DNA of 37,632 nt from Gammaproteobacteria bacterium (lineage in GTDB: Bacteria > Pseudomonadota > Gammaproteobacteria > SZUA-152). A program made the position numbers and the translations under genes. Positions within the stretch are counted from its first letter, which is position 1; every line of letters begins with the position of its first letter. Of this stretch, positions 6,513 to 37,632 are shown piece by piece. The DNA is taken from NCBI GenBank assembly GCA_021647505.1, contig JAKIUN010000035.1, positions 1 to 37,632 on the forward strand, written 5' to 3'. The notes under the pieces are model-generated. The model did no database searches. It was not told the origin of the DNA and worked only from the letters and a program-made list of their open reading frames with translations.

Positions 6513-6564
6513 TTAATTTACCTTGCACAACTCTTCCTCAATCAAACATAACTCAGTTTTCCAA

Positions 6565-9891: not shown

Positions 9892-10110
9892 GGTATTCCC
9901 TGCAATTGATTTCTGAATTTGATTCTTAGGTATTACTCTACCCGTCGCACTGAAGTAAGCAGCAAAATACTTGGCTATTAACACGAAGAAAGAACGAGTA
10001 ATTACCCATGAAGGGTGGTTACACGAACTATCTATCCAATACGCCCACGAAATTCGACAGGTTCACAGTGTGTTGAATCCGCGCAGTGTCGATAAGGAAA
10101 AGCAAATACT

Positions 10111-10872: not shown

Positions 10873-10967
10873 TTCTTATCTTCTTTAATCTCTATGGATT
10901 GAGAACCAAGCTTCCCAATATTGACTTCGAGACTGTTCATTATTCCTGCGTGTTGTATCTAGCCTGC

Positions 10968-12623: not shown

Positions 12624-12699
12624 TTACAAATTTTTTGTATAATTAGTCGATTAACAACAGATAATGGCAACAATCTAGCCTATAGAAAATATATCTACG

Positions 12700-13857: not shown

Positions 13858-13876
13858 TTTATCAGCTGGCCAACAC

Positions 13877-14458
13877 TCAAGGGACGACAACGATGTCCCC
13901 GCTTTGTAACAGTATATTTTGGCTGAGGTTTTTTCCCTTTTCGACGGCGGAATACTCAAATAGATACACTTTTTGTTTATCGTTTTGCCGTCTTAATATC
14001 CTGATGTCATCCAGTGAAGCGAATTTAGCCGTGCCACCAGCAATACTCAATGCCTGCATCACATCAAGCTGGCGACTCATAACAAATTCACCGGGTTTAT
14101 TGACTTTACCTATCACGTAAATTTTGTTGCCATCAGGTTGCTTTACCGCCACATTGACGGATAAATCGGGAATGTATTTTACCAATCCGTCTGTTACTTC
14201 CTTTTTTAGTTGCTCGGTTGTTTTCCCCAAGGCGGAAAGTTCTCCAACCAGCGGAAAAGACAAACGTCCATCAGGTTTTACCAACACCTCTAACTGCATA
14301 TCGGGTTCGCGCCACACAGATATTGACAGAATATCACCGGGTTGGATCTTGTAACCAAATTTGTATAGCAGGTTCTTCTCTTCTGCCAAACATGCCAAAG
14401 ATGTTATTAGTAATAAAACCAAGAACAGAAATTTAATGAGCAGATTTTTTCTTTTCAT
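13877..14458 (-). CDS. Polysaccharide export protein, short Wza type (poly_export + SLBB)
   Basis: A periplasmic protein that forms part of the polymer export channel. The 193-residue precursor has a Sec signal peptide (about 1-25, KFLFLVLLLITSLACLA). The Cys at 23 does not sit in a good lipobox (Ser at -3), so lipidation is doubtful. The poly_export domain begins YKIQPGDILSISVWREPDMQ (35-54) and the SLBB fold covers IYVIGKVNKPGEF. The protein ends at SGDIVVVP, with no C-terminal amphipathic helix. E. coli Wza is 379 residues and uses such a helix to cross the outer membrane. The barrel gene starts 20 bases downstream and may supply the missing outer-membrane part. This is the first gene of the minus-strand locus. 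GGGA lies upstream of the ATG. Confidence 0.9.
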   Translation of the reverse strand: MKRKNLLIKFLFLVLLLITSLACLAEEKNLLYKFGYKIQPGDILSISVWREPDMQLEVLVKPDGRLSFPLVGELSALGKTTEQLKKEVTDGLVKYIPDLSVNVAVKQPDGNKIYVIGKVNKPGEFVMSRQLDVMQALSIAGGTAKFASLDDIRILRRQNDKQKVYLFEYSAVEKGKNLSQNILLQSGDIVVVP

Positions 14459-15533: not shown

Positions 15534-15889
15534 GGTTATTCGAAGCATTGTGTGAAGACCTATGGGGCCATTTTCAGGCCACCACAGTAAAACTGTATGC
15601 TATTTCTGAATCCATCGAATGAACGATAGCCCCTGGCATTCGACTTGACGGTCTGAATTTTCGAGTTCAGTCCTTCGGCAACCGCGTTACTGATTCGATG
15701 TTGAAAATAGGTCAGCAAGTTAGGTAAGTGGCTTTTAATCATTCTGGCTTTTGCCTTGATCGGCTCTAAACGGCTTCTAATAGCCCATGAATACCATTTG
15801 TCAAAATGTCGCTCAGCACATCCTGTATAGGTATATGTCCAGAAGTGTCGAAAGAGCTCCTTAATGGCGCAGGCCCTGGCGACCTTTAA
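15534..15889 (-). mobile_element. ISL3-family insertion sequence, 3' end only
   Basis: The minus strand encodes the last ~110 residues of an ISL3 transposase, from LKVARACAIKELF through YSWAIRSRLEPIKAKARMIK, LPNLLTYFQHRISNAVAEGL and NSKIQTVKSNARGYRSF to the stop at 15560. These are hallmark C-terminal DDE_Tnp_ISL3 motifs. The plus-strand sequence from 15534, GGTTATTCGAAGCATTGTGT, resembles an ISL3 terminal repeat, so one true end of the element is probably present. The 5' three quarters of the transposase and the other terminus are missing. The break at about 15889 joins directly to EAL-domain coding sequence. Confidence 0.75.
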
Positions 15890-15895
15890 GTCAGA

Positions 15896-16052
15896 ATTTC
15901 TAAGGCTGGATGTAGTTGCTGAAGACATCGAGACCGAACATCAACAACAGCACCTGCAGGCCATCGGCTGCTACTATGCGCAAGGTTGCCCGATGCCCGC
16001 CGACGAGGCATTACAACGCCTGTTGCGAGAAAGAGGTATCGAATATACCTAA
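15896..16052 (+). pseudogene. C-terminal remnant of an EAL-domain phosphodiesterase gene
   Basis: The plus strand encodes RLDVVAEDIETEHQQQHLQA, then IGCYYAQGCPMPADEALQRL and LRERGIEYT before a stop. This is the end of an EAL domain. The usual text is VVAEGVET...LGC...GQG...PLPA..F..LL. Gly is replaced by Asp in AED, and the residues normally between QG and the PLPA-like motif appear shortened. No upstream EAL sequence remains, because the ISL3 remnant begins immediately before it. An ATG at 15864 opens the frame, but the first residues come from the insertion sequence, so a functional product is unlikely. Confidence 0.7.
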
Positions 16053-16111: not shown

Positions 16112-17143
16112 TCAGGAGCCTGACGCATTCCTGGCGCAACGAAAACCGAAACTGTCATTTTTGACTTTTTTTGCGAAGAAGGAGCGATTAAAGACCGGCG
16201 CGGAAATTCCACAGCGGTAAAATGAGCAATCGAACCAGGAGCCCCCTTTCAAGGTTTTATAACGCTCGCCATAGCTCTCGGAGGCATGTGTATTGCCCGG
16301 ATAGGAAAGATACCACGATGCAGTCCATTCCCAGACATTGCCCGACATGTCATAAACTCCGTAAGGGCTGATACCACCCTTGAAGGCGCCGGCAGGCGTA
16401 GTATCGCCAGGTTTGCCGATGGCTGACCAGCGCAACGGCGTATTGGCGCGGGAGATATCGAATTCATTGCCCCAGGGATAGGTACGACCATCGATGCCTC
16501 GCGCGGCCTTCTCCCACTCGGCATCAGTGGGCAAACGCTTGCCGGCCCATTGACAATAGGCCTGCGCATCGTACCAGCTGACATTGGTCACCGGGTGATC
16601 CACTTTGCTGCGGGGAAAGGTGCGGTTACGCCAGTGTGTCGGCGAACGACGATTTGTTGCATCATTGAATTTCTTGTACTGCAAGTTGGTCACTTCATAC
16701 TTGTCGATATCATAACTATTCAGCTGAACACGGTGCTGCGGCCCCTCGTCCGGTAGCCGGTCATCACTACCCATGATAAATTCACCGGCGGGAATTCGCA
16801 GCATTTCATTGGGTGCATCACCGAGGCGGGAAAAACGTGGATAGATGGGAAAGCGCATGCCGATATCGGGCGGTACAGGTTTATCCGGTTTCGCGACCGT
16901 CGACTGTACCGCCTTCAGTTCAACACCCTGATGCAAACCCAGCGCTTTCCCCTGACCATGGCAGTTGTTACAACTGTCGAGGGTGGAAAATAGGATGGCC
17001 TGCAGTTCTTGCTTGTTCTCGTGGCAACGCAAGCACTGGCTATCTGAATGAGCGTAACCCTCCTCTGCGGTAACGGGTTGCACGGTCAACAATGCCATCA
17101 GTACGATCATCAATAAATACATTATCGAGACAACCTTGTTCAT
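16112..17143 (-). CDS. Secreted diheme c-type cytochrome fused to a formylglycine-generating-enzyme-fold domain
   Basis: A 343-residue exported fusion. The signal peptide is about 1-26 (MYLLMIVLMALLTVQPVTA). Two c-type heme attachment sites follow, CLRCH (37-41) and CNNCH (58-62), then a proline-rich linker. A complete FGE-sulfatase/SUMF1 domain runs from about 112 to 339: RIPAGEFIMGSDD (116-128), KYEVTNLQY, VTNVSWYDAQAYCQWAGKRL, PTDAEWEKAARG, SGNVWEWTASWY and FGFRCAR. C306 and C311 have the five-residue spacing of the copper-binding cysteines of true FGE, shifted one residue relative to the GGS motif. The ATG overlaps the tilS stop by four bases, so the gene is translated with tilS. Role unknown: a heme-linked periplasmic redox or protein-modifying enzyme is inferred, but most SUMF1-fold proteins are not formylglycine enzymes. 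Confidence 0.88.
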   Translation of the reverse strand: MNKVVSIMYLLMIVLMALLTVQPVTAEEGYAHSDSQCLRCHENKQELQAILFSTLDSCNNCHGQGKALGLHQGVELKAVQSTVAKPDKPVPPDIGMRFPIYPRFSRLGDAPNEMLRIPAGEFIMGSDDRLPDEGPQHRVQLNSYDIDKYEVTNLQYKKFNDATNRRSPTHWRNRTFPRSKVDHPVTNVSWYDAQAYCQWAGKRLPTDAEWEKAARGIDGRTYPWGNEFDISRANTPLRWSAIGKPGDTTPAGAFKGGISPYGVYDMSGNVWEWTASWYLSYPGNTHASESYGERYKTLKGGSWFDCSFYRCGISAPVFNRSFFAKKVKNDSFGFRCARNASGS

Positions 17144-23468: not shown

Positions 23469-24491
23469 TTAGGATGGGAGAAACTCAACAGGGTATGTCA
23501 CCGTAATGGGCTCACCCTCTCTCACGCCAAAGTCAAAATGTTTTACACGAGCGAGCAAACGTGACTCTAATTTTGCATTGTTCAGCTCGCTGGATCTTAT
23601 TACCACCCCAGACACCTTGCCAGATGCCTGGATAGTAATATCGAACACAATCCTTCCCTTGAGTCCAGGATTTTTCCGGCGAGCCTGACGATATACAGAG
23701 TAAAGCCTACCCTTATTCCGATCCATCACATAAGCAATATCCTCATCTGTTCGGAAATTACCAGACGTAGAGGTGAATTTCTTTTTCCTGTCTGAACCTT
23801 CTTGCTCCTCCACAATATCAGTGTCAACACTCACCCCTGCTGTCAATACCGGAGCAACCACAACACGTTTCTGAGTGCCTAGTGTGGTAGAGCTAATGCT
23901 TGAAGAAAAGTTCTCTGTCATAACTGTTTCGGCAGCACCGGCTGTCTCAGGCCCAACATCCAGAATGCCTGTATCTATCCTGGCCATGTTTCCGGCATCG
24001 GATACACGGCGTATTTTTCTCCCAACCATTGCGCTGACATCCGTGGTATCCATCAAGTCCGCCAATTCATTACTCAGCGCCAGCAATCCGCTTCTTTCAG
24101 CCCTCGCTCTCGCCGCATTCGGTACATCAGTCCGTTGTATCTTGTTCTCAGTTATTCCTGGTTTCAGCTGAGCCTTGGGTTTCGGCGTCGGCTCCCGCTT
24201 CACCTTTGGTTCCAACTTTGGTTTCGGTTTTGGTCTTGGCTTTGGTTTTGATATGGCTTCCTGACTGACTCTTGGTTTAGGGGATTCACTCTCCAAGATA
24301 AACTGCGCCACTCTTTCGGGCACGCTCACATGAATCATGCGCTCTTTTTTTGGCAGCTCAACCGAGGACAAAAATACACCCGCCGATAACACGACAGCAA
24401 GAACGACAATATTAATAATGACAAAACGCTGAGCACGACCATTATCAGGACACCACCTTAACGCCTGATCCTCATAATTCAGCGCCCTCAT
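23469..24491 (-). CDS. TonB-like energy transducer with AgmX/PglI-type C-terminal domain
   Basis: A membrane-anchored periplasmic protein expected to carry force from the ExbB/ExbD motor to partners in the cell wall or outer membrane. It has 340 residues from the ATG at 24491; a TTG three bases earlier is also possible. A single membrane helix covers about 23-44 (FVIINIVVLAVVLSAGVF). A Pro/Lys-rich arm follows (about 71-112, with KPKPRPKPKPK), as in TonB. The C-terminal ~90 residues (RLYSVYRQARRKNPGLKGRI, then VSGVVIRSSELN) match the AgmX/PglI C-terminal domain found in Myxococcus gliding proteins. It is the last gene of the set, beginning 6 bases after the second exbD stop. The organisation is that of TonB systems, but no TonB-dependent receptor is nearby. 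Confidence 0.85.
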   Translation of the reverse strand: MRALNYEDQALRWCPDNGRAQRFVIINIVVLAVVLSAGVFLSSVELPKKERMIHVSVPERVAQFILESESPKPRVSQEAISKPKPRPKPKPKLEPKVKREPTPKPKAQLKPGITENKIQRTDVPNAARARAERSGLLALSNELADLMDTTDVSAMVGRKIRRVSDAGNMARIDTGILDVGPETAGAAETVMTENFSSSISSTTLGTQKRVVVAPVLTAGVSVDTDIVEEQEGSDRKKKFTSTSGNFRTDEDIAYVMDRNKGRLYSVYRQARRKNPGLKGRIVFDITIQASGKVSGVVIRSSELNNAKLESRLLARVKHFDFGVREGEPITVTYPVEFLPS

Positions 24492-24497
24492 CAAACC

Positions 24498-25001
24498 TTA
24501 CCCTTCCACTGTCTGTATCGCGGAAAAAGCGATAGAAGTGTAATTTGCCTGGCGGCAGGTAATTAAAACCTTTCGTAATAACTGATACGGAATATTCTCA
24601 TCCCCCATAATTGTGACCGGACGACCGATGGCCTCACCGCTTATCGTAGACGATGATCTAGATGCATGAAATTTCAACTCTTTCTCCAAACCCGCGATCA
24701 ACGGACGGGGGTCTGACAAGATGTCATCTATCTTTGCGACCTCTACCCCCTGCACCAAAATACGATCGCGGGTAAGTGTAATGACCAGAGTCTCCCTGGG
24801 AACCTTTTCAGCAATCGTTGTCGGCAACCTAAGGTCTTTGTTATTCGGTAACTGTTGAACGCTGGATGAACTGATTAGTAGAAAAAATACCAGGATGGTA
24901 AAAATATCCATTAAAGAGACAAGGTTAATGCCGGATTTTCCGTGCAGCTTTCTAAATCGCTCCATCCGTTGGACTCGACTTGATATTTTCAATGTTTTCA
25001 T
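24498..25001 (-). CDS. ExbD/TolR-type motor subunit (with the conserved Asp)
   Basis: A 167-residue single-pass inner-membrane protein of the ExbD/TolR family. Such proteins sit inside an ExbB/TolQ ring and carry the proton-accepting Asp. The cytoplasmic N-terminus is followed by INLVSLMDIFTILVFFLLIS (25-44), in which D32 occupies the position of the essential Asp (ExbD D25, TolR D23). The periplasmic domain is about 100 residues long, the usual size. It starts 9 bases after the stop of the first exbD-like gene, with an AGGCGG site upstream, and precedes the TonB-like gene by six bases. It is presumably the active proton-carrying subunit of the pair. Confidence 0.87.
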   Translation of the reverse strand: MKTLKISSRVQRMERFRKLHGKSGINLVSLMDIFTILVFFLLISSSSVQQLPNNKDLRLPTTIAEKVPRETLVITLTRDRILVQGVEVAKIDDILSDPRPLIAGLEKELKFHASRSSSTISGEAIGRPVTIMGDENIPYQLLRKVLITCRQANYTSIAFSAIQTVEG

Positions 25002-25010
25002 TTAAGCCGC

Positions 25011-25523
25011 CTATTCCCTTTCTGTCTTATTGGACAGATTCGGCGCATCGCCAATTGATATATTCGGAAACAACTCAATGGTTTCAACGGTGGCCAAACG
25101 GACAACCTTTGCACTACGCACACGATCCATTACAGCTATTAAGGTCTTGTAGCTAACAGAGGGTTCCAGCAGCAATGTAATACTTTTTTTCTCAGGAAAA
25201 CGTGTTTTAATTTCCACCAAAAGATCAGTAAACAAGTCCCATCGGGTTTCATTATCGGTACGCTCAAAACGTCGGATCAAACCTAACTCACCATCCTGAA
25301 GATCAAAACTTTTCTCGCGCAATACCAGCTCCAGCTGAAGCGTAACCTTTTCCTGACTATTCTGCTTAGCATCGAGCGCCGGCAAATTCAACTCCAATAC
25401 AGATATTCTGGAAAAGACTGCCGTGATCAACAGAAATGGAACCAGTATCACCATTAAATTCATGAAGGCAGTGATATTTAGCTCTTCGGCTTCAGTCGTA
25501 TATTTTTTGCTGAATCTCTTCAT
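25011..25523 (-). CDS. ExbD/TolR-type motor subunit with Asn replacing the conserved Asp
   Basis: A second ExbD/TolR paralogue, 170 residues from the ATG at 25523. A TTG nine bases earlier is possible, but the ATG is better spaced from AGGG. The membrane helix reads LNITAFMNLMVILVPFLLIT (15-34). The family pattern is PFVDVMLVLL, so N22 stands where the proton-carrying Asp is expected. A periplasmic domain follows, with ISVLELNLPALDAKQN at its start. It lies 11 bases after exbB. It may form a mixed dimer with the Asp-containing paralogue encoded next, giving an asymmetric stator with one proton path. Whether the substitution is fixed in the family cannot be judged here. Confidence 0.85.
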   Translation of the reverse strand: MKRFSKKYTTEAEELNITAFMNLMVILVPFLLITAVFSRISVLELNLPALDAKQNSQEKVTLQLELVLREKSFDLQDGELGLIRRFERTDNETRWDLFTDLLVEIKTRFPEKKSITLLLEPSVSYKTLIAVMDRVRSAKVVRLATVETIELFPNISIGDAPNLSNKTERE

Positions 25524-25534
25524 GCAAATCAACC

Positions 25535-26152
25535 CTATTCCCGAATCATCAGATTGATTGTTTTAATCGCGGCATTTTCAAGATTAGCGACCAGGCGAGC
25601 GGTTTTAGTCACCAAATATGAGTGGATCAGCAACAGGGGTATAGCCGCCATCAAACCAAAGGCTGTTGTATTCATGGCGACTGAAATACTGGCGGACAGC
25701 AGATCCGCTTTCTCAGCCGGGTCAGCAGATGCGACCGCAGTAAAGGCCTGTATCAGCCCCACAATGGTGCCAAGCAAGCCAAGAAGCGTTGCAACATTGG
25801 CATATGTTGCCAAATAATGTGTGCGCTGCTCCAACTCGGGCATGGCATCCATCATCCCCTCCTCCATCGCCGCCTCGATTATCTCGCGCCGAGTATTTGC
25901 ACCATATCTGCAGAAACCATAATTAAGAATACTGGCAAGAGGGGTATCTACAGATTCCGTCAGCTTAACCGCGCGCGGAATATCGTCCGCCTTTAGCATA
26001 GGCACAAGTTGCATCCAGGTTTTCCTGGTGAGACTCTGAGCCTTGCGTAAATATATAAACCGTTCTAAAGCAATGGCCATCCCGATTGAAAATATAATGA
26101 GTATGGGGTACATAAATGGCCCGCCAGTTTGAAAGAACTTAACTACTTCCAT
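25535..26152 (-). CDS. ExbB/TolQ/MotA-type proton channel subunit
   Basis: The polytopic ring subunit of a proton-driven motor, 205 residues. The frame is open to 26188, but the ATG at 26152 is preceded at ideal distance by GGAGG (26160-26164, complement) and leads straight into VVKFFQTGGPFMYPILIIFS, the first membrane helix. GLLGTIVGLIQAF in the second helix and AFGLMAAIPLLLIHSYL in the third are the classic MotA/TolQ/ExbB core motifs, including the conserved TIVG and AIP. The cytoplasmic loop between helices 1 and 2 contains the usual GTHYLAT-like segment (EQRTHYLATYANVATLLGLL). It heads the motor genes, 237 bases downstream of the kinase gene. Confidence 0.93.
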   Translation of the reverse strand: MEVVKFFQTGGPFMYPILIIFSIGMAIALERFIYLRKAQSLTRKTWMQLVPMLKADDIPRAVKLTESVDTPLASILNYGFCRYGANTRREIIEAAMEEGMMDAMPELEQRTHYLATYANVATLLGLLGTIVGLIQAFTAVASADPAEKADLLSASISVAMNTTAFGLMAAIPLLLIHSYLVTKTARLVANLENAAIKTINLMIRE

Positions 26153-26159
26153 AAAAAAT

Positions 26160-26164
26160 CCTCC
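26160..26164 (-). promoter_or_regulatory. Ribosome-binding site fixing the exbB start
   Basis: A full GGAGG lies seven bases before the ATG at 26152 (minus strand). The alternative start at 26188 has no such site, so the shorter protein is preferred. This is one of the strongest Shine-Dalgarno matches in the window. Confidence 0.75.
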
Positions 26165-26389
26165 AAAATATTTTTCTATCCACAACATATAAACAGCTAG
26201 CCCCTGCAGGCCTATACAATGAGCTATAAAATCACAAAAAAACTGAAAAGACTTAGCGCAACAAATCCTGACGGTACAGGAAACGTCATATACCTGAACA
26301 ACACTGCGGGAAATGTAGCCAAGTAGATTTTTTATACGTCTGACAGAGTTCTAAAACACTATGAATCAGCCATTATCTTGTATTGAAAT

Positions 26390-29065
26390 TTACTTAACAG
26401 CCAGTTCTCTCAAGACACGGAATCCAGTGACATCGTCCGGCTGGCCCGAGTGATACTGCCAGCTCGAAACCTGACATTCATCCATGGGGGTAATATACGA
26501 CCCACCCATGACGACCAATTGTCCATTTTTTCCATATCCCCACTCCTGAACATTTCCTAAATAATTGACCAAACCCCAAGAATTTTTCTTACCCGTAGTG
26601 ATCTTGACAAGCCTGTCACCTTTTTGAATGCCACGACTTCTAAACTGACAGTTTCGGTTTGGATCATGGGTTCTTGTCGTTGAAGCGGCGGCATAGCGCC
26701 ACTCATTCTTGGTCGGAAGACGATATTTCTTACCCGTCTCTTTGCTGAGCCAGTTTAAATATCCCTTGATCACCTTAACCGATTGACCAGTGACGGGGAC
26801 ATCAGCATTACCCCGCTCAGACAAAGAACAGTTATTGGTTTCCAGGCAGTATTGATTAAATTCAGCAACAGAAACTTCATACCTTCCAATTGCAAAGCTC
26901 CTGATATTTTCAGTGTCAGGAACAACAACCAAATCAGGCCCATCTCCTGTGGATTTTACCTGATCCCTGCACACGGCTCTTTCCCCTCTCGCGCCAAATC
27001 CCGCTATGTAGTTATTACAGGCATCATGAAGGTGTATTTTAATAGATGTAATTACTGCATTATTCTCAAAAATCCGTAGGGCATATTTTCTTGACTCAAT
27101 CGCTCGCTCGGGAAACCTTCGCCCCTGCTTTGATATGCACGCAGCCAGAGAATTCACGATATCCCCTTTAATTATCGAGTATTTGTCCTTGTTCAGTGAC
27201 TGCAGCTTCCTGATGGCCATCTCAAAATCCCGCATATTAATTCCTGCATGACACTCCAATTGTTTGTTGACGTTGACAAGTGCAAGACTGTATTCATCGA
27301 TTAAACGCCGGGCCTGTATTTCCCCACTTCGTTTCTTAATGGCTTTTTGTCTTTCATTGCGAGCATTCAAACGATCAACTTTCTCTTTTTCATTATTAGC
27401 CAGCCGAGATAATTTTTCATTTTCGTTTATAGCTTCCGATAACTTAATTTCCTCTCTTGCTAAATCAGTGGAATTATCGCTATATCTTATTGCATTTTCA
27501 ATCAGACGTCTCGCACTACGAAATTTAAGCGAGCTTATTTCAGCCTGTATTTTATTCAAATACAGTGAAAATATTCTGCTCCTCATCTCTGTAAGCCAGC
27601 TATCGACTGGGGGTAACAACGTATCCACCCCCTGATACTCCTTCCATACATTCCCCTCCCAGACACTAGAAAATATGGGGTTTTCAACAAGCGCTTCCAG
27701 TGCCTCCTTGTATAAACCCAGCCGAATAGAAAACTCCAGCTCACTTCTAATATCGTGCTCGGAAAAAGACACCGGCTCTACAGTCTCTGTCCCATTGTTA
27801 AGGTATGAAAATCCGACAACACTAACCAATAAAACCATAGAGATTGCGAGCATATATCGAGGCTTTCGCTCTATAACCAACTGCTGATAGAATTCCCCGA
27901 CAGATCCGATACGATCCTTGCGTTCAAAGGCCAATGCCTTTTCCAGAACTTTCCACTGTCTCTTCTTCAAGTCTGTGATACGGTCGGGTTTTAGGCGCTG
28001 TTTCCTTGCCAGGTCGGCTGGCTGTTTGCCAAAAGGATGTCTGCCAGTAAATAACTCATAGACAATACAGCCCAGTGCATATATGTCATCCCTGACGTCT
28101 GGTTCCTGACCCTCAAGCATTTCACAACTGGCATATGCTGGTGTTAGCCCTCCCAGGCTTCCCGCATCAAATATAGTCTTATGAACCGATAGTCCATCCG
28201 TTTTCTCAATAGTCGTTACAGCTCTTGCAATACCGAAATCAAATATTTTTGCTGTACCATCCGTTGTTACAAATATATTTCCAGGCTTGAAATCTGCGTG
28301 AACAATATTCTTTGCATGTGCATATTGCAGTGCCCGGCAAATATCCTGGACAATTATCCACACATCATCCCAGGGGAGTCCTGTCGTCCTGTACTGCTTA
28401 ATCAATCTATCGAGCGGCTTTCCCTCCATGTACTCCATGGTCATGAAGAACACATCCCCATCTCTGTCAAAATCAAAGACCTGAACAATATTCTGATGGG
28501 AAAGGCTTTGAGTTTTACTAGACTCACGTTGAAGGGCAATAAATGCCTCGGGATGTGAATTAAATTCCGAGTTCAACATTTTTATAGCGACATAGGGATA
28601 TCTATCTTTAGCCTCTACTTTCAATCGGTCCCTAGCCTTATAAACAACCCCCATTCCACCGACACCAAGCACTTTCTCCAAGAGAAAGCGGTCTTTTAAG
28701 ACACGATTTTTGGCTGTGACATGAGGAAAATAATACTCCCGGCTTCCCGGTATCCGGTCGGCTCCGGACAAGGCAGAAGACAATGGCGCCGGCAAAAAAC
28801 GGGTACTATCCTTCCCTGTGCCAATTTCCAAAGCGCGGTATCGAGTCGCATCAGGATCCGTTTGATCTCCTGCAGCCTGGCGCTCTCCCGCCTTCTCTCC
28901 ATTCTCCCCATTCTCTCGATTAAATTGACTCCGCTGATGTAGCCTGGTTTTATTCTTGTCTGCTAACACGGTATGGCCCGACGAGAATCCCTCCTCGGCT
29001 TCCTTACCATCTTGACTCACTGCCTTGGCGTCCGAGTCAATGTTTTCATCGTTGGGTTCATTCAT
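26390..29065 (-). CDS. Membrane Ser/Thr protein kinase with C-terminal SUMF1/FGE-fold domain
   Basis: An 891-residue Hanks-type kinase. An acidic/polar, probably disordered N-terminus (1-115) precedes the kinase domain (about 125-400). Kinase landmarks are the Gly loop GVGGMG (134-139), K162 in VAIK, DFG at 276-278, and the activation-segment end TPAYASCE. The catalytic loop reads HADFKPGN, so HRD is replaced by H256-A-D258, keeping the catalytic Asp but losing the Arg (a non-RD kinase). One membrane helix (about 404-422) follows, then a ~250-residue helical region with coiled-coil character. A SUMF1-like domain ends the protein (IGRYEVSVAEFNQYC, KYRLPTKNEWRYAAA, NYLGNVQEWGYG, TGFRVLREL). That domain lacks the FGE cysteine pair, so it is probably a binding module. 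The gene is followed by the motor genes and faces the TPR gene set, suggesting it senses or regulates that machine. Confidence 0.9.
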   Translation of the reverse strand: MNEPNDENIDSDAKAVSQDGKEAEEGFSSGHTVLADKNKTRLHQRSQFNRENGENGEKAGERQAAGDQTDPDATRYRALEIGTGKDSTRFLPAPLSSALSGADRIPGSREYYFPHVTAKNRVLKDRFLLEKVLGVGGMGVVYKARDRLKVEAKDRYPYVAIKMLNSEFNSHPEAFIALQRESSKTQSLSHQNIVQVFDFDRDGDVFFMTMEYMEGKPLDRLIKQYRTTGLPWDDVWIIVQDICRALQYAHAKNIVHADFKPGNIFVTTDGTAKIFDFGIARAVTTIEKTDGLSVHKTIFDAGSLGGLTPAYASCEMLEGQEPDVRDDIYALGCIVYELFTGRHPFGKQPADLARKQRLKPDRITDLKKRQWKVLEKALAFERKDRIGSVGEFYQQLVIERKPRYMLAISMVLLVSVVGFSYLNNGTETVEPVSFSEHDIRSELEFSIRLGLYKEALEALVENPIFSSVWEGNVWKEYQGVDTLLPPVDSWLTEMRSRIFSLYLNKIQAEISSLKFRSARRLIENAIRYSDNSTDLAREEIKLSEAINENEKLSRLANNEKEKVDRLNARNERQKAIKKRSGEIQARRLIDEYSLALVNVNKQLECHAGINMRDFEMAIRKLQSLNKDKYSIIKGDIVNSLAACISKQGRRFPERAIESRKYALRIFENNAVITSIKIHLHDACNNYIAGFGARGERAVCRDQVKSTGDGPDLVVVPDTENIRSFAIGRYEVSVAEFNQYCLETNNCSLSERGNADVPVTGQSVKVIKGYLNWLSKETGKKYRLPTKNEWRYAAASTTRTHDPNRNCQFRSRGIQKGDRLVKITTGKKNSWGLVNYLGNVQEWGYGKNGQLVVMGGSYITPMDECQVSSWQYHSGQPDDVTGFRVLRELAVK

Positions 29066-29754
29066 CTGACTATAATTTCTTAAATCGGCCTGCTTGATGA
29101 GTAAAATACTTCAGCAAAAATTGCTTGAATGGCGCCAGGGAACCCATTGGAATGAGCACAAATGAGTACTAATGAGGGGGTACAGAAAGCCAATCACACT
29201 AAAATTCAAGCATAACGGCGTATATTACAACTCTTTTAGGGCAAAAATCTGCTAAATGCATGACATATCAGAACTTACTCTCACACAAACAGCGTTCCCG
29301 GAGAGTCAACGCGCCAAAGTGAATATTGCTTGCATTCAAATACCATCCATGGATGGCCAACCTAAATCCTGAAGAAGGCCCCACAATCAATTGATAACAA
29401 AGTGAATTTTACAAAGCGTCTGACGCCAGCAGGAGAAACTACTCCTGGGGAATCAACTTCCTGCGGATCCCGACCTCCGCCAAGATGGCGGTGACTCCTC
29501 CCGCATCACCAAAACGCCTATCACCGGCTACTCCGCCCATGTAGTCGCATGTACACAGTTGTTACATTGTCTTGCTGAACAAGGCCCATCACCTGACCAA
29601 TATTCCAACCAGAACACCTCCCCTTCAGGGTCTGCAATCCGGCACCTCAACAATAGACGCACAAAGGCAACAATGGTATGTTTCGAAACGTCAGCTTGCA
29701 CCTTTACTTCCACGTACTTCCACGAGAATAGTATTTTTCCGTCCGGATCCGACC
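29066..29754. other. Divergent intergenic region between kinase and TPR gene sets
   Basis: This 689-base region should carry promoters for both directions. It contains three ten-base-phased copies of AATGAG (29151-29176). It also has small hairpins: CAGGAG/CTCCTG near 29430 and CCGCCA/TGGCGG near 29480. An open frame in phase with the first TPR protein begins at 29572, but it has no signal peptide and no ribosome-binding site and is treated as untranslated. No classical promoter was convincing. Confidence 0.45.
29151..29176. promoter_or_regulatory. Three AATGAG direct repeats at ten-base spacing
   Basis: AATGAG occurs at 29151, 29161 and 29171, each unit ten bases long (AATGAGCACA, AATGAGTACT, AATGAGGGGG). 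Spacing of one helical turn would place the repeats on one face of the DNA, as in binding sites for response regulators that bind in tandem. The site ends 86 bases upstream of the kinase start and 579 upstream of the first TPR gene. Functional reading is inference. Confidence 0.35.
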
Positions 29755-31173
29755 ATGTTATTTCACACTTCACTCCCCTATAAATCAACTATCTTGATTT
29801 GTGGAATATTACCCTTTTTTATATCGTTCTTTCCCTTTCCCGCCTTGGCAGACGCAATCACCTTCTCCAGAATCGATGAGCTCGACAAGCGGTTCCAGGA
29901 TTTTTCATCGGAGTATTACAAAACATTAATACTCCAGAGAAAGAAATCTAAAACCCCTGTTTTTCACCAACTATCACAGCTTGATCGCACGGTTCGTCAG
30001 CTAGAAGAAAAACAGCAGCACGTAGAGGCTATTACACTGATCATATATAATCTGGACTTGATCAGGGACAATACCGAGACACCGTCTACACTTTATTTCA
30101 TTAAACTGTTACTGGAACGCAATGAACTGGAATCGGCGACAAATCTATTTGATAGCATCCAATCGAACAGTAACAGAGTTATCATATCCAACGTCCAATA
30201 TGAATTTGCTAAATACCATCTAAAACGAAAGAAATGGAAAAATACCCTAAAGTACCTCGATGGAATCGTTGCAGACCTTGTAATGCATGACGCGCACTAC
30301 GCACTGCTGATAAAAGGAATTTCACTACAAAACTTAAAAGAACATAGACAGGCTATAAAAGTTTACAAGCAAATCCCCAATACATCGAAGTATTTTGCGC
30401 ATGCCACATTGAATATCGCTGTCGCCTATATTCGTCAAGATTGGTGGACTGATGCACATATTGCCATAAACGAGATATTACAGAAAAGCCGCAACAAAGT
30501 ATCGAATGAAATGGCAAACCGGCTCTTTGTCATGCTGGGTTATTCGCTTATGCGAAAGGAATATTACCGAAATGCCCGTGATGCCTTCCGCTCCGTAAAC
30601 CTGGATAGCCACTATGCCAATCAAGCACTGCTGGGATTAACCCTGACCGCGGCCAGTCAAAATGATTATATTGGCGCATTAAATGCGGCTAATATCTTGA
30701 AAGAAAAGGCGGATAAGGATTTACCCACAGAAGAATCCTACCTACTGATACCCTATATTTATAGCAGGCTTGATCAGCACCTCACGGCTTCCGCAGGCTT
30801 TGACCAAGCCATTAATCATTACACGCGGCGTATTCAAGAATTAGAAGCCATTTTAAGCACAAATAATCATCTTGAAAAAAGAGTCAGTATTATCGCAAAC
30901 AACAACATGCTTCGCATCGATGACTATGAGCTGGACTTCAGCAAGCAGTATCCAAAATCTTTCCTAGAAAACCTTACAGCATTAAATGAGCTGGAAAGAT
31001 ACATAAATAACCAGGCAATCAAGAAAATATTTGATCGACTCTATGCCGACCATCAAGCAACCCTGGATGAGATAATTCGTGAACTATTGAATCAGAGGAT
31101 AAGCTACTTATCCAGCTATACCGACCAATCAAGGTATGGACTGGCGCGCATATATGACAGCAGCCCAGAATGA
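29755..31173 (+). CDS. Secreted TPR-like repeat protein
   Basis: A 472-residue exported helical-repeat protein. The frame extends upstream to 29572, but the ATG at 29755 leads directly into a Sec signal peptide (ILICGILPFFISFFPFPALA), so it is the preferred start. The mature part is a series of paired helices of TPR type, for example ALLIKGISLQNLKEHRQAIK, then HATLNIAVAYIRQDWWTDAH and LFVMLGYSLMRKEYYRNARD. A charged coiled region follows near the C-terminus. No lipobox is present, so it should be soluble in the periplasm. It is the first gene of the plus-strand set, ending 7 bases before the start of the large TPR lipoprotein. It is likely a scaffold for the motor complex, comparable in type, though not shown homologous, to the TPR proteins of Myxococcus Glt. 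Confidence 0.8.
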   Translation: MLFHTSLPYKSTILICGILPFFISFFPFPALADAITFSRIDELDKRFQDFSSEYYKTLILQRKKSKTPVFHQLSQLDRTVRQLEEKQQHVEAITLIIYNLDLIRDNTETPSTLYFIKLLLERNELESATNLFDSIQSNSNRVIISNVQYEFAKYHLKRKKWKNTLKYLDGIVADLVMHDAHYALLIKGISLQNLKEHRQAIKVYKQIPNTSKYFAHATLNIAVAYIRQDWWTDAHIAINEILQKSRNKVSNEMANRLFVMLGYSLMRKEYYRNARDAFRSVNLDSHYANQALLGLTLTAASQNDYIGALNAANILKEKADKDLPTEESYLLIPYIYSRLDQHLTASAGFDQAINHYTRRIQELEAILSTNNHLEKRVSIIANNNMLRIDDYELDFSKQYPKSFLENLTALNELERYINNQAIKKIFDRLYADHQATLDEIIRELLNQRISYLSSYTDQSRYGLARIYDSSPE

Positions 31174-31180
31174 TCTCTCC

Positions 31181-33988
31181 ATGGCTCTGAAGACGCCCCT
31201 ATATATTCTTCTTCTGCTGTTGCTTGCAGCATGTAGCACTCCGCAACCTCCTCGCACACTGGGTGATATTGATATAACTGGTAATCATCGGCATCGCATC
31301 ATTACCTCATCTGCACCAAGATCAAATGAGGAAATCAGGCAGGCCTATGCAAGATACCTCAGTCATTCAGGCAAGAGTGGCAGGTCTCGCGCGACGGCCA
31401 TCAATCGCCTCGCTGAGCTGGAATTTGAGCTAGGCAGCAAGATCGCGCACGAAAATGACCTTCTGAATAGCACTAATGACGAAAAAATTGATATCGCATA
31501 CATCGACAGACTGAATAAAATGATCGAGCTTATCACCTATTCATTAGCCGAATACCCAAACGCTCAAGGCAACGACAAACTCTTATACAACCTAGCGAAC
31601 GCCTATGAGCAAAAAGGTGATTCGAAGAAATCCGTGGCTGTGCTCGATGAAATAGTCAGAGAATATTCCGATTCACAGTATTACATTGAAAGCCAGTTTC
31701 GGGTTGCAGAAGACCACTATTCAAAGAGGGACTATATCTCCGCTGAAGATGCATATACGAATGTAATTTTCTCAAAAAGTGGCAACAAATTCATAGAAAA
31801 GTCTCTCTTAAAAAGAGGATGGGCCAGGTTCAAGCTTAATTACTACCAAGAAGCCGCTGATGATTTTCTAGCGGCAGTCACCTATCATAGCTTTACTGAC
31901 CCAGATGAACTTAAAGGCATCGAGAAGGATATTTTTGACGAATATTTTCGTGCTATCGGGCTCTCATTCTCCTATATGGGAAGCCTGAATGAGGTTCACC
32001 AGCATATTGATAACAGGTCAAAACTTAAATACATCTACCAGATATATAAAAGCATTAGCGATATCTATTTCAAGCAGAATCGTTATTCGGATTCTGCTGA
32101 GACACTGATCTATTTCACTAAAAAATATCCGGATTCCCGGCACATACCCGAGTCCCATGAGAAAATTATCGACATTTGGCGACAAGCAGGTTTTCTCACC
32201 AAGTACTACGCTTCTATTGACTCCTTTTACTCGGAATACAACCCCAATAGTCGTTATTGGGCAAGTAAAAGTGTAGATCTAAAGACACAAAGAGAAATTG
32301 ACCATTCATTGAAAGAGTACACGCTACTGATGGCAATGCATTTCCACAGAAACTATCAAGCCACGAAAAAAGAGCTGGCGTTTTCCAATGCGGAAAAGTG
32401 GTATCAACGCTACTTGAGCCATTATTCTCAACACTCGCGAAAAGACAATATTCATTTTCTATACGCAGAGTTATTGTCGGAACACAACAACGATGAAGCC
32501 GCGCTTTACCATTACGAGATAGCAGCCTACGATGCGGGTATCATCCTGGATAAAGACGCTGCTTACAGTACAATTTTCATTACCAGCCGCCTGTATCTAT
32601 CTGAACAACAGGGTGGCCGAAAATTAAAATGGCTGAATCAACATATCAAGTATGCAACCCTTTACGGGCAACTCTATCCAAATGATGAGCAGTCCCCCAG
32701 CATCGTGACACATGCAGCAGAATTGGCCTTTAACGCCCAGATGTATAATGAGGCCATTGAACTAACAAGCCTCATTTCAGGTAACGCTGACTCACTCGCC
32801 ATTGAAAACGCCCGCATTATTCGCGGACAATCGTATATGGCACTAAAACAATATACTCGTGCCGAGAACATTTACCACTCTCTTTTGGACTCGGCAAGTG
32901 CGACTTATATCACTCAATATCAAATTGTCGACAAACTCGCCTTTTCAATATATCAGCAAGGCGTTGCGGAAAAAAACAGCGGTAACATACCGCATGCCAT
33001 TCGGCATTTTAGACGAATCCCGCAAATCGTTCCTGAATCAAATATTGCCCCTGCCGGTATGAATGAGGCAGTAACATTAAGTATAAATAATGAAATGTGG
33101 GAAGCTGCTATTAAGATGATAAAGGAGTATCAGGCACGTTACCCTCAGCACGATCTTAACGTGGATATGAGCAAGAAACTGTCACTCGCATATTTAAGAT
33201 CAGGACAAGATATAGCCGCTGCCCAGGAATATGAAAAAATATCGAAATCCGGGGAAGGTTTAGAAATTAAAATCGCCGCGCTATGGAAGGCCGCTGAACT
33301 CTATGAGTCCAATAATGAAACCTTATTGGCCATTAATGCGTACTCAGAATTTGCAGACACATATCCGACACACTACTCACAGAAAATGGAGGCCATGTAC
33401 AGGCTCGCCACCCTTTATGACACCATCAACACACCGGACAGCGCCAACCTTTGGAGGCATAGAATACTGAGTGCCGATAAAGATATCACTAGGGAGAAAA
33501 AAACTGAGCGGATGAATTTTATTGCTTCATCAAGCGCTCTCGTATTGGCGAATAATGAATACAAAGCCTATAAACAATTGAAGCTTATACTGCCACTGAA
33601 AGAGAGCCTGAAGAGAAAGAAAGCGTCACTCCAAAAGGCAGTTAGATTATTTGGACAAGCATCTGTATATGGCGTAGCGGAAACGACAACCGAAGCCACA
33701 CACAGTATCGCCGAAATCTATAATATATTTAGCCAGGCCTTATTGCATTCTGAGCGCCCACTTGGCCTGAATAATGACGAACTGGAACAGTATGAAATTC
33801 TCTTAGAAGATCAAGCCTTCCCCTTTGAGGAGAAAGCCATCGAGTTTTTTGAAGTCAATCTTTCATATATCAAGGATGGCCTTTATGATTCGTGGATTCA
33901 AAAAAGCCGTTATCAATTGATGATATTATTTCCGGCCAAATATCAACGACAAGTAAAAACAGATACTTATATCAATGTATTACACTAG
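31181..33988 (+). CDS. Large TPR lipoprotein
   Basis: A 935-residue lipoprotein built almost wholly of TPR-like helical repeats. The longest frame starts at 31136 inside the previous gene. The ATG at 31181 begins the signal peptide itself (MALKTPLYILLLLLLAAC) with a good lipobox LAAC, giving C18 as the lipidated residue. Ser at +2 predicts sorting to the outer membrane. Repeats include KLLYNLANAYEQKGDSKKSV, FRVAEDHYSKRDYISAEDAY and AALWKAAELYESNNETLLAI, consistent with Sel1/TPR and YfiO-like folds. The size and role resemble the large periplasmic TPR scaffold proteins of the Myxococcus Glt/Nfs machines (GltD type), which is inference from architecture. The 3' end overlaps the next gene by 14 bases. 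Confidence 0.85.
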   Translation: MALKTPLYILLLLLLAACSTPQPPRTLGDIDITGNHRHRIITSSAPRSNEEIRQAYARYLSHSGKSGRSRATAINRLAELEFELGSKIAHENDLLNSTNDEKIDIAYIDRLNKMIELITYSLAEYPNAQGNDKLLYNLANAYEQKGDSKKSVAVLDEIVREYSDSQYYIESQFRVAEDHYSKRDYISAEDAYTNVIFSKSGNKFIEKSLLKRGWARFKLNYYQEAADDFLAAVTYHSFTDPDELKGIEKDIFDEYFRAIGLSFSYMGSLNEVHQHIDNRSKLKYIYQIYKSISDIYFKQNRYSDSAETLIYFTKKYPDSRHIPESHEKIIDIWRQAGFLTKYYASIDSFYSEYNPNSRYWASKSVDLKTQREIDHSLKEYTLLMAMHFHRNYQATKKELAFSNAEKWYQRYLSHYSQHSRKDNIHFLYAELLSEHNNDEAALYHYEIAAYDAGIILDKDAAYSTIFITSRLYLSEQQGGRKLKWLNQHIKYATLYGQLYPNDEQSPSIVTHAAELAFNAQMYNEAIELTSLISGNADSLAIENARIIRGQSYMALKQYTRAENIYHSLLDSASATYITQYQIVDKLAFSIYQQGVAEKNSGNIPHAIRHFRRIPQIVPESNIAPAGMNEAVTLSINNEMWEAAIKMIKEYQARYPQHDLNVDMSKKLSLAYLRSGQDIAAAQEYEKISKSGEGLEIKIAALWKAAELYESNNETLLAINAYSEFADTYPTHYSQKMEAMYRLATLYDTINTPDSANLWRHRILSADKDITREKKTERMNFIASSSALVLANNEYKAYKQLKLILPLKESLKRKKASLQKAVRLFGQASVYGVAETTTEATHSIAEIYNIFSQALLHSERPLGLNNDELEQYEILLEDQAFPFEEKAIEFFEVNLSYIKDGLYDSWIQKSRYQLMILFPAKYQRQVKTDTYINVLH

Positions 33989-34574
33989 AATTATTATCAT
34001 ATTAAGCCTGCTGTCGTTATCCGCCTGTAGTCAGCATATTGGGCAGAAATATGATGAAACATCAGTGCAAAGCGAGGATTTTACAAGCAACCCCGAATCC
34101 GAAATCAGGCTATATCAACAGGCCATCATGCATCTTAGAGATAACGATCTGGATATGGCAAAAGATATTCTAGTTGCTTTCACAAAAAAGCGTCCTGAGC
34201 TTGCTGGCCCATGGGCCAATCTGGGGCTCATCAAAATCAAGAACAATGATCTGGATGCGGCAGAAAAATTATTGAAAATAGCCGTGGAGAAAAACCCTAA
34301 AATGGCTCAAGCATTTAACCTGCTTGGCTTCATCGAAAACAAACGAGAAAACCTACAGCAGGCTAGGCAGTTTTACATCCAGGCAATTCAATATAAAAAC
34401 GACTATGCTATCGCACACTACAACCTCGCCCTGCTCTATGACACCTATTTCCAGGAAATAGAGAAGTCCATACTACATTATCAGCGCTACCTGGAATTGA
34501 TTGATTATAGCGATCAAGAAACTATTGATTGGCTGGATGAGCTAAAATTTTCATTAAAGAAAAAAACCTCATGA
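33975..34574 (+). CDS. Small TPR lipoprotein
   Basis: A 199-residue lipoprotein. The signal peptide MYYTRIIIILSLLSLSAC has the lipobox LSAC with C18 and Ser at +2, predicting the outer membrane. At least three canonical TPR units follow: PWANLGLIKIKNNDLDAAEK, AFNLLGFIENKRENLQQARQ and AHYNLALLYDTYFQEIEKSI. The start lies inside the end of the large TPR lipoprotein gene (14-base overlap), and the stop overlaps the next start (ATGA). Such overlaps point to fixed stoichiometry. It resembles PilF-like and GltE-like TPR lipoproteins. The absence of type IV pilus genes here argues against PilF. Confidence 0.87.
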   Translation: MYYTRIIIILSLLSLSACSQHIGQKYDETSVQSEDFTSNPESEIRLYQQAIMHLRDNDLDMAKDILVAFTKKRPELAGPWANLGLIKIKNNDLDAAEKLLKIAVEKNPKMAQAFNLLGFIENKRENLQQARQFYIQAIQYKNDYAIAHYNLALLYDTYFQEIEKSILHYQRYLELIDYSDQETIDWLDELKFSLKKKTS

Positions 34575-34834
34575 AAAACATGAATCTGGTTACTGGTATT
34601 TTATTCCTGTTACTCACCTGTACCAGTATTTACGCCAGTGATAAACGGGAGCTAGATACTACGATTATCAAAGGAAACAAAGAAGCACCACAAATTTTAT
34701 ACATGGTGCCGTGGCAAGAGACAAAGACTTCAACAAAAAAGGAAGAGCAAAAACTCGTATTACACAGTTTATTTGGGGATTTATTTGACCCGATACTGCC
34801 CGAAAAGCTTGATCAAAAAATGGAAAATGAATAA
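34571..34834 (+). CDS. Small exported protein of unknown function
   Basis: An 87-residue protein with a Sec signal peptide (MNLVTGILFLLLTCTSIYA), leaving about 64 mature residues. The mature part begins SDKRELDTTIIKGNKEAPQI, followed by LYMVPWQ, and the tail is charged. It has no cysteine after the signal peptide and no known domain. Its ATG overlaps the stop of the small TPR lipoprotein (ATGA), so it is coupled to the TPR set and probably belongs to the same envelope machine. It is a genuine gene by signal peptide, coupling and codon pattern. Function is not known to me. Confidence 0.8.
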   Translation: MKNMNLVTGILFLLLTCTSIYASDKRELDTTIIKGNKEAPQILYMVPWQETKTSTKKEEQKLVLHSLFGDLFDPILPEKLDQKMENE

Positions 34835-34891: not shown

Positions 34892-36760
34892 TCAGAACCC
34901 ATACTGAATATCGAAAAGTATTCTCATTTTTTTCTCTTCAGGCGCGATATCTGACCGTGAAAAACTGCTTGCAACGGGAAAGGCGAACTGAATATTTCCC
35001 TTGAACCCAAGCCCATACGCAAGCTGAAAACCGATTCCCACATCACTGAGTTTACCCGTTAAGACATCTTCATCAACAATCGGACGTTGCTTGCCGTATG
35101 CATAATCAGCAAAAACAAACGGTTTAATCATTTTTTGAATACTGACGCCCACAAAATCCGGACTATTAAATACCCAGTCTATACCAATATATACAGCATC
35201 ATCGGCTGAATATATATTAGGTGAAAAGGCACGCACACGGGACAGGCCGGCTAATGATAACCTGACCATGGAAGACAGATTGGTGCCGGAATATTGTGCA
35301 CTCGTGCGGAAAATAAGCCGGGTGTTCGCATCAAAATATGGAATACGCCAAAACATCAGGGATGTATATTCCGCTGATAAAATGTAATATTTTTTATCCC
35401 GCTCGGCACCCGCCCCAAACACAAATGTACCAGATGTCAACCTGACATTCCCCTGATGGAGTAACTGGGAAGATTCTCGCAAAATATCGTAGTTAAACTG
35501 TAATGAAGTATTTTCCAGGCGTTCATCAAGTCGCCCGCCGACATCAGGTATATCCCCTATTTGCAAGTCAGACTCAAGGTCTTCATATTTTAAGACCAGA
35601 TTGTAACTTTCGACCCGACTTCTTCTAAGAATATATATTGCTGAGATATCCTTGGCATTAACTATCCCATTAAGGTTGAGGCTGGTTAGCGAGGATGACT
35701 GATCAACCACAAACTGATTTTTTGAGATACCCGCACCGATCTTAAATCTGGGGCTTAAAATATTCATTTGATAATTCAAGCGCCAATATTTTGTATTATT
35801 CGGGCGCGATGAATTTAAGATGCTCAGCCTAAAAAGATCAGAAAATCCAAGTATATTATTTACTTGAAAATCTGCGTACAGGCGATATAAGCCGGTCTCA
35901 TCCGTTCCATGATTATCAAGCCTCAGATTTGCAGAATACCTGTCTTCATCTCTAATATTTATGTTTAGTTTGGTATCACCAACCTGAGCGCCAGGTTCAA
36001 AATAGCCATCCGCGCTTACACCTGGGAAATCGTTGATTAGGTACAAGTTCTCTTCAACCATGCTGTTGGTTACCGGCATTGTCAACATGCCATCAAAGAC
36101 CGAACTAATCACTTTGTCCGAATACAGCTGGTTACCATGGGTTTTCACCTCACCCAATACTCCGATCAACAATGTAAGAGTAACAATGCCATCCCTTACT
36201 TCTTGCTTGGGTATATATGCCTTCGCAAGAATAAAGCCTCGCTCGCGATAAAAGCGGGTGATTTTGTCTGCAATGGACTCTATCTGGCTCAGCAATATTC
36301 CACGCTTGGTTCGCTGCGTTCTGACCAGCCAGATTAGCCGCTGTACTTCACTCGGTGTGACGTGACGACCTTGAGTTTCATCTTCTATATCCACTAATAA
36401 ATCCGACAATTCCCCCAACTCATCAATGGTATAACCGGAGGGTAGATGTTTATCCTCATCCATCAAGTCGGCACGTATTTCTTCGACCATCTTCCTCAGA
36501 GCTTCCCGGGTAATACCCAATTCCGGATATTCAATAAGGCCCTGTATTCTGAACTCTGACACGGCCAGACGCGGCCCCGCGGATGGGTCAGGACTTCGCT
36601 CCTTTACCCCTGGAATATCTAAATCCCTCAGCATGCTCTTTTTTTTCAACTCGGGAGTTTCAGTTATTTCAGGCATTTCCAAAATTCCCGCCATAACCTG
36701 TGAAACGTATACGCAAGCACCAAAGAGAAGTATCATGCTTATGTGATTAGGGGTTAACAT
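34892..36760 (-). CDS. TpsB/ShlB/FhaC-family outer-membrane transporter
   Basis: A two-partner-secretion type translocator of the Omp85 superfamily, 622 residues from the ATG at 36760. The TTG at 36775 would add five residues. The signal peptide is about 1-24. Two POTRA-like regions follow. The first opens with VSEFRIQGL (67-75) and resumes at SIADKITRFYRERGFILAKA (162-181), interrupted by about 80 extra residues rich in Asp and Glu. The second is about 203-275 (GEVKTHGNQLYSDKVISSVF). The C-terminal barrel has VRAF where VRG[YF] is usual in loop 6, and FADYAYG as the downstream FxDxG-like motif. It converges on the TPR gene set, with 57 bases between the stops. No TpsA partner with a hemagglutinin N-domain is visible in the window. 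Confidence 0.9.
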   Translation of the reverse strand: MLTPNHISMILLFGACVYVSQVMAGILEMPEITETPELKKKSMLRDLDIPGVKERSPDPSAGPRLAVSEFRIQGLIEYPELGITREALRKMVEEIRADLMDEDKHLPSGYTIDELGELSDLLVDIEDETQGRHVTPSEVQRLIWLVRTQRTKRGILLSQIESIADKITRFYRERGFILAKAYIPKQEVRDGIVTLTLLIGVLGEVKTHGNQLYSDKVISSVFDGMLTMPVTNSMVEENLYLINDFPGVSADGYFEPGAQVGDTKLNINIRDEDRYSANLRLDNHGTDETGLYRLYADFQVNNILGFSDLFRLSILNSSRPNNTKYWRLNYQMNILSPRFKIGAGISKNQFVVDQSSSLTSLNLNGIVNAKDISAIYILRRSRVESYNLVLKYEDLESDLQIGDIPDVGGRLDERLENTSLQFNYDILRESSQLLHQGNVRLTSGTFVFGAGAERDKKYYILSAEYTSLMFWRIPYFDANTRLIFRTSAQYSGTNLSSMVRLSLAGLSRVRAFSPNIYSADDAVYIGIDWVFNSPDFVGVSIQKMIKPFVFADYAYGKQRPIVDEDVLTGKLSDVGIGFQLAYGLGFKGNIQFAFPVASSFSRSDIAPEEKKMRILFDIQYGF

Positions 36761-37632
36761 AAAATTTTTCCACAAAATTGCATCTTTAATATTCCTATCG
36801 AAAGCAAATACTCTTGGTAGCGCAAGAGGTAGTTATCGAGGACACAGCGCCGCGCCTGACACCTTTTCAGGAAACAACAGGTCTATAGGATGACCAAGCC
36901 ACTCAGCACAATGAATCTTGGCCTATATGACTTGTGCTGAGCAAGTAGCCTGGCCCGTCTTTGAGTCACACCTCACGTAAGTCATTGATTCTACCTCAAG
37001 AGCAAAAATAAACACCTTGAGTAACAATGAGATACAATGGCAAATCAAAGCGTAGGGCCATAATCTTCGCCACACATCTTGACAGCCCCAAATAACCTGA
37101 TCCAATGGGGCTGCATTCGAGCAAATTCAAAGAGTTATTGAAAAAATGAAATCTGTAGTGCCATAAGGTGCGCGTACAACACGCTAACTTATTGATTGGT
37201 AGGGTAATTGCGTCCAAGAAACTCAAAGATGGGCTGGGCTGAGCTTGCGAAACCCAGGGCCTTACTCGGCACAACCTCACCTCTCACATTGATCATCTCC
37301 TGCCCAATCCATCAGAAGCTTTCCTCAATTCATTGACCGATGGAAACTCAAACAGGGGCAATCCATAACCACAGCTGGCTTAACCATCCATGTCTGCGGG
37401 AGGGGTAACAGATGAAATCAACGCGCCTTTCAATGTTGAGCAAATCACGCAATGTCCCGCGCATTAATATCTCCCGGGTTTCGCAGGCTCAACCCAGGCT
37501 ACTTGCTTAATATCCACCATTAATTGCGCCACCAAATAATGGCACACTTCCCCCAAATTCGACAGGGATGCGCGGGTTCCATCAGGGCCAGAGATGATGA
37601 AATATCTTACCCAGACATACTGGAGGCCCGCA
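36761..37632. other. Right-end region without a recognised gene
   Basis: About 870 bases with no coding sequence I can support. Two short open frames on the minus strand (36923-37105 and 36996-37280) have no recognisable motif, signal peptide or ribosome-binding site. The promoter for the TpsB-type gene should be near its left end. A pair of inverted short repeats (37231-37502) occupies the right part. Confidence 0.45.
37231..37502. repeat. Two inverted copies of a short palindromic repeat
   Basis: CTGGGCTGAGCTTGCGAAAC plus CC (within 37231-37260) is repeated in inverse orientation at 37473-37502, with 2 mismatches over the 22-base core. Each unit is itself an imperfect palindrome (GGGTT...AACCC). 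The consensus TGGGTTGAGC.TGCGAAACCC resembles a short intergenic repeat seen in many gammaproteobacterial genomes. The two copies bound about 210 bases of non-coding sequence, as a miniature mobile element might. Confidence 0.55.

Follow-up and report, generated by a model that had tools for sequence, protein, structure and literature searches.

A gammaproteobacterial "core complex" composed of AglRQS together with GltC/D/E/G-like proteins was reported by Luciano et al. in 2011, and its function was not known (PMC3169522). Relays running from the outer membrane to a Ser/Thr kinase, TagQRST-PpkA and TssW-PpkA, are described for T6SS (PMC10482370, PMC12607579). The formation of AglQ/AglS-type heterodimers is listed as an open question in a 2022 review (PMC9389320). 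According to the Teredinibacter turnerae genome paper, the T6SS kinase has an extension into the periplasm; ExbB, TonB and TPR do not appear in that text. We found no report of a T6SS with ExbB/ExbD/TonB/AgmX or TPR modules in the open-access literature, supplementary figures of the key papers excluded.

The window, by which we mean the whole stretch of 37,632 nucleotides analysed (genome G000), carries an island of two divergent arms, with the kinase and motor genes on the minus strand and the TPR set and a small exported protein on the plus strand. The preliminary description had listed a Ser/Thr kinase, ExbB, two ExbD and a TonB-like protein, divergent from three TPR proteins and the small exported protein; all of these ORFs are open at the positions given there, and profile searches agree with the domain identities of every island gene except the small protein, which has no family match. 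That description overlooked the FGE domain of the kinase and a TpsB gene (34892-36775, minus strand) just outside its interval. No sizeable unassigned genes lie between the parts of the island, and since the same gene set recurs in dozens of genomes, the island is not a chance collection. The divergent intergenic region spans 29066..29754, and it is between kinase and TPR1 that T6SS genes are situated in relatives. Elsewhere in the window, positions 900-14458 hold what appears by sequence to be a polysaccharide cluster (glycosyltransferase, flippase, rml-type sugar genes, Wzc/Wza-like proteins), and 15560-15928 a fragment of an ISL3-family transposase. An Rfam search of the window returned no RNA family. 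An iron-uptake (TonB) reading of the island was dropped because its genes include no TonB-dependent receptor, and a defence-system reading because the PADLOC matches are generic kinase-domain matches only.

The kinase (26390..29065, minus strand) is a transmembrane Ser/Thr kinase with a C-terminal FGE-like domain (Pkinase 5.4e-41, FGE-sulfatase 1.8e-14). Its landmarks are HADFKPGN, DFG and a transmembrane helix near residue 408, and the FGE-like domain is predicted to be periplasmic because it is located after this helix. No gene for a cognate FHA protein or phosphatase was found near the kinase. We also note that a second FGE-like protein is encoded in the window at 16112-17143, an apparently exported protein in which CxxCH motifs precede the FGE-like region. 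The ring subunit of the motor is of ExbB/TolQ/AglR type (25535..26188, minus strand; Pfam MotA_ExbB 2.1e-28), with TolQ and ExbB as its closest solved relatives. A small ORF of 83-96 aa between kinase and ExbB recurs in many T6SS-linked loci (L164-L168, L174, L178, L179).

Two ExbD proteins follow on the minus strand. In ExbD1 (25011..25532; Pfam ExbD 4.3e-15) the alignment places an Asn at the position of the transmembrane Asp (FMNLMVILVPFLL), and in ExbD2 (24498..25001; Pfam ExbD 3.7e-16) the Asp is kept (LMDIFTILVFFLL). Across the window and about 48 related loci (49 rows, one locus being present twice), the position normally taken by the proton-carrying Asp is Asn in 49/49 ExbD1 rows and Asp in all ExbD2 rows aligned. 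The pattern fits an asymmetric pair with a putative single proton-carrying subunit, and its constancy bears on possible AglQ/AglS-type heterodimers. The last gene of this arm encodes a GltG-like, TonB-like protein with an AgmX/PglI-type C-terminus (23469..24494, minus strand; NCBIfam NF033768 1.9e-18, 66 bits against a cut-off of 40), for which the PDB holds zero sequence relatives.

On the plus strand, TPR1 (29755..31173) is an exported TPR-solenoid protein with TPR matches and a nearly all-helical AlphaFold2 model (pLDDT 88.7). Its start is placed at ATG 29755, which yields a signal peptide, the program-called TTG 29572 lying too far upstream. TPR2 (31136..33988), a GltD-like lipoprotein of 950 aa, and TPR3 (33975..34574), a GltE-like lipoprotein, each match TPR families and carry a lipobox; the AlphaFold2 model of TPR2 is helical throughout (pLDDT 86.7, pTM 0.53). 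The solenoid models of TPR1 and TPR2 would suit a scaffold role and prove no span. Searches of the PDB with TPR2 gave generic TPR matches only, and the structures that Foldseek matched to the TPR1 model were all generic TPR solenoids, among them a Campylobacter flagellar-motor periplasmic scaffold at low TM-score. TPR3 matches the NCBIfam GltE model weakly (2e-4), far below cut-off, and TPR1-3 have no other Glt-model match. The Group A genes (GltA, B, F, H-K) have no NCBIfam match, within the subset of Group A families covered, save the shared AgmX C-terminal domain of GltJ. The small exported protein (34571..34834) carries a conserved GNKEAPQILYMVPW-type motif and its gene follows TPR3 (or TPR2) in each of the three kinds of cluster, so that it is supported by conservation. 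A 24,315-aa open frame in the relative G014, at first taken for a giant TPR protein, proved to be a masked-N run.

The window contains the set that marks the Agl/Glt core complex, namely ExbB, two ExbD and a TonB-like protein with AgmX/PglI C-terminus, with TPR proteins within the cluster, and its basic machine is the already described gammaproteobacterial core complex (PMC3169522). The usual form of this complex is a single operon without kinase, in the order ~180-aa signal-peptide protein, TPR1, TPR2, TPR3, small protein, ExbB, ExbD1, ExbD2 and TonB-like protein. A TPR2 relative is present in 85 of 369 sampled gammaproteobacteria (about 23%). The genome of the window also has a canonical copy on contig C31 as well as a motor-less copy on C76. 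The latter TPR set (G000:C76, L027) has motor-less relatives at L052, L054, L056 and L058, and that of L058 lies downstream of a DUF3570 protein, a thioredoxin-like protein, two beta-barrel-like proteins and an HZS_alpha-domain protein. The preliminary description had proposed a single machine related to Agl/Glt and had named rare neighbourhood of the motor and TPR sets in other genomes as the outcome that would speak against it. That outcome did not arise, and a single machine is supported: about 30 canonical operons have the two sets side by side, and co-inheritance extends to genomes in which 27 kb separates them.

The closest relatives of the window outside its genus are found within T6SS loci. 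For window TPR2, the nearest counterpart is that of G003, from the same genus, at 84% identity; the next genomes follow at 44-54%, after which there is a gap to <=38%. In 8/8 of the 44-54% loci (G150, G260, G099, G159, G222, G366, G019, G016) the TPR set belongs to a T6SS locus, where it is situated downstream of ClpV, directly or up to four genes later; T6SS genes were identified by Pfam. A scan of 84,980 species genomes yielded 41 named loci. ClpV or TssG occurs in the same stretch as TPR2 for 23 loci of the TPR2 tree, including those of Teredinibacter waterburyi Bs02, Teredinibacter ISS155, Saccharophagus K07, Aliikangiella coralliicola, A. marina and the MAG Cellvibrio 79. A T6SS-type ExbB (64-95% identity) is present in 17/19 of these genomes, and where coordinates are comparable it shares a contig with TPR2 at a distance of about 27 kb; the remaining two also have the motor end, complete in Cellvibrio 79 and cut by the contig end in G402. 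The order TssM-TagF-PppA-kinase-ExbB-ExbD1-ExbD2-TonB-like was observed in 16/16 loci fetched as a test, with an FGE-like domain on every kinase. TPR1-TPR2-TPR3-small is at the ClpV end, in most cases with no gene between it and ClpV, and motor and kinase are at the opposite end of the T6SS locus. A single contig carries both ends in G019, in G016 and in the independent genome G758; in the last, found by a separate later search that serves as an out-of-sample test, the whole island falls within 35 kb. As a control, T6SS genes occur in 0/32 canonical or motor-less loci. The genomes compared are mostly MAGs. These observations show that the window island represents a subtype of the gammaproteobacterial Agl/Glt-like core complex whose usual place is inside a T6SS locus, with its kinase in the PpkA position.

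The window kinase shares 52% identity over 781 aa with the T6SS-locus kinase, and both possess the predicted periplasmic FGE-like domain. Like PpkA-type kinases, it is a transmembrane Ser/Thr kinase with a periplasmic extension, and it is orthologous to the kinases that adjoin TagF-PppA. Among the contexts mapped, the kinase is restricted to the T6SS-linked subtype and its descendant; it is not a general controller of Agl/Glt-like machines. TssA-TssM, ClpV, Hcp and VgrG are present at the loci of relatives and absent from the window island.

Trees of TPR2, the concatenated motor proteins and the kinase, built quickly and with SH-aLRT support only, nest the window and its genus relatives in the T6SS-linked clade. 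The sister of the window group is the G150/G404 T6SS locus in each case (SH-aLRT 100 for TPR2, 99 for the motor, 99 for the kinase). Since genes of both T6SS-locus ends return the same sister, the motor and the TPR set travel together. The TPR2 tree also places a small group of canonical-type operons (L155-L159, G222:C45), on a long branch, inside the broader T6SS-linked side, which leaves open in which direction the earliest transitions went. The sole TssF of G000 has 34% identity to the cognate type and its sole TssM 35%, whereas the cognate type itself ranges over 64-100% (TssF) and 53-87% (TssM) in the relatives, which indicates that the resident T6SS of G000 differs from the cognate one; as the genomes are drafts, absence of the cognate system depends on completeness, 98% for G000 and 94% for G003. 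The comparisons show that the window cluster is a stand-alone descendant of the T6SS-locus module from which the weapon genes were lost. Despite this loss the module is kept under purifying selection in the lineage of the window: dN/dS against G003 is 0.06-0.31 for ten genes, and the island values are somewhat above those of the canonical copy in most comparable cases. We also note a window-like locus, L186 (G408:C16), in which the kinase and TonB-like genes are each in two frames, owing to decay or assembly error.

Next to the TPR arm, the window encodes a TpsB outer-membrane transporter (34892..36775, minus strand) with both the POTRA domain (POTRA_2 3e-10) and the ShlB barrel (ShlB 4.8e-22) of two-partner secretion, and the contig ends before its candidate TpsA partner is reached. 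In G003, TpsB is followed on its far side by the candidate TpsA, a large repeat protein (L029:14355-19823) that runs off the contig and has no Pfam match within its readable part; the end of this protein finds a 76% match on G000:C90. Proteins orthologous to the window TpsB, with 51-57% identity, are encoded at a distance of about 3.5-16 kb from the TPR sets of L131, L132, L143, G099, G159 and G366, in L143 just past the PAAR, VgrG and Hcp genes. A TpsB of 35% identity follows the TonB-like gene on the same strand in Saccharophagus K07. G007 has TagF-PppA-kinase-TpsB-TPR3-small with no motor at the locus (L196, G007:C204 160-7770), and its T6SS is the next relative (TssM 49%, TssF 59%). A TPR1-TPR2 fusion after a large repeat protein was also seen in this genome (G007:C61, L038). 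The TpsB adjacency may be incidental, as most T6SS-linked loci have no TpsB in the flanks examined. The Agl/Glt kinship recognized in the preliminary description stands; that description missed the T6SS link and the adjoining two-partner secretion system, and these change the most likely client of the machine.

We give an even chance to the reading in which a proton-driven TonB/TPR relay of this T6SS-derived, stand-alone kinase/motor/TPR module acts on a TpsB/TpsA surface complex, with the kinase as its signalling outlet. Powered by the proton gradient, ExbB and the ExbD1/ExbD2 pair would push the TonB-like rod through peptidoglycan; at the outer membrane the rod would act on the TPR solenoids of the lipoproteins, and these in turn would engage a surface complex, in the window presumably a giant TpsA exported by TpsB. 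The periplasmic FGE-like domain of the kinase may sense the state of the relay and signal it to the cytoplasmic side. Where a T6SS is present, as in the relatives, the relay would place the weapon at a contact site or trigger it there, taking the part of TagQRST or TssW; in the window its task would be to put the two-partner surface protein under tension, to display it or to sense it. We infer force transmission, TpsB/TpsA coupling and the periplasmic readout by the kinase, leaning on Agl/Glt, TagQRST and TssW. More tentatively, there may be a class of T6SS with its own proton-driven gliding-type motor and a TPR relay that mechanically senses or places contact sites and fires the weapon through a kinase; the window would be a weaponless descendant that keeps the force-sensing relay for a two-partner adhesin.

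The module could instead act in trans, its kinase and motor activating or placing a different T6SS resident in the same genome. G000 does contain such a system, with FHA-TssJ-K-L-M-TagF-PppA on C96, where no kinase adjoins PppA, and TssA to ClpV on C104, and TssM is present in 3/3 window-type genomes. However, TssM of the resident T6SS also occurs in G001, G002 and G004, where the window-type kinase was not found, and another kinase (G000:C28; kinase-domain identity 45%), which is common to the G001, G002 and G004 genomes, is a better candidate partner, which leaves action in trans unlikely. We rate somewhat lower still the reading of the preliminary description as an autonomous gliding or polymer-assembly machine unlinked to T6SS or two-partner secretion. 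The core genes are shared with the gliding and spore-coat machines of Myxococcus (PMC3169522) and an exopolysaccharide cluster lies in the same window, but it is in T6SS loci that the form with the kinase is located, the same paper argues that the core by itself probably does not power motility, and the exopolysaccharide genes are set apart from the island by what look, from sequence, like the housekeeping genes tilS, accA and dnaE. It is highly improbable that the island is just what is left of a lost T6SS locus, decaying and no longer functional: the T6SS genes are lost and two genes of G408 are split, but the ten genes are intact in the window and G003 at the dN/dS values given above, and both divergent arms are retained in three genomes.

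The basic machine has been known since 2011, and what is new is the T6SS-linked subtype, which joins the gliding-machine family to T6SS. One subtype of the gammaproteobacterial core complex, whose function has been open since then, now has a clear partner in the T6SS. As the two occur together in cultured Teredinibacter, Aliikangiella and Saccharophagus, the function of this subtype is directly testable. For T6SS research, the T6SS-derived relay favoured here would add a proton-driven motor to the known means of choosing the place and time of firing.

Comparison with known systems reveals partial likenesses. With two-partner secretion of the FhaC/FhaB type the window shares a TpsB with POTRA and ShlB barrel, which in G003 stands beside a large repeat protein; it differs in that the relatives have it near T6SS and TPR genes, and the candidate TpsA is incomplete in the assemblies. 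The TssW-PpkA-Fha axis of Acidovorax citrulli (PMC12607579) has in common an outer-membrane anchor which, together with PpkA, decides the T6SS assembly site; the available part of that source mentions no motor, and the likeness would be one of functional analogy. With TagQRST-PpkA-PppA-Fha of P. aeruginosa, the shared features are a path from outer-membrane lipoprotein through the periplasm to a transmembrane Ser/Thr kinase and a T6SS locus with TagF and PppA, whereas window-type T6SS loci are flanked by an ExbB-ExbD-TonB motor and TPR solenoids and have the FGE-like domain fused to the kinase. The Agl/Glt core complex (PMC3169522) shares with the window the ExbB-type, two ExbD-type and TonB/AgmX-type proteins and several TPR proteins, clustered and co-inherited. 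In contrast to that complex, the window adds a kinase and two divergent arms, is devoid of the extra exported gene that canonical operons have before TPR1, and falls in a clade of its own that is linked to T6SS loci.
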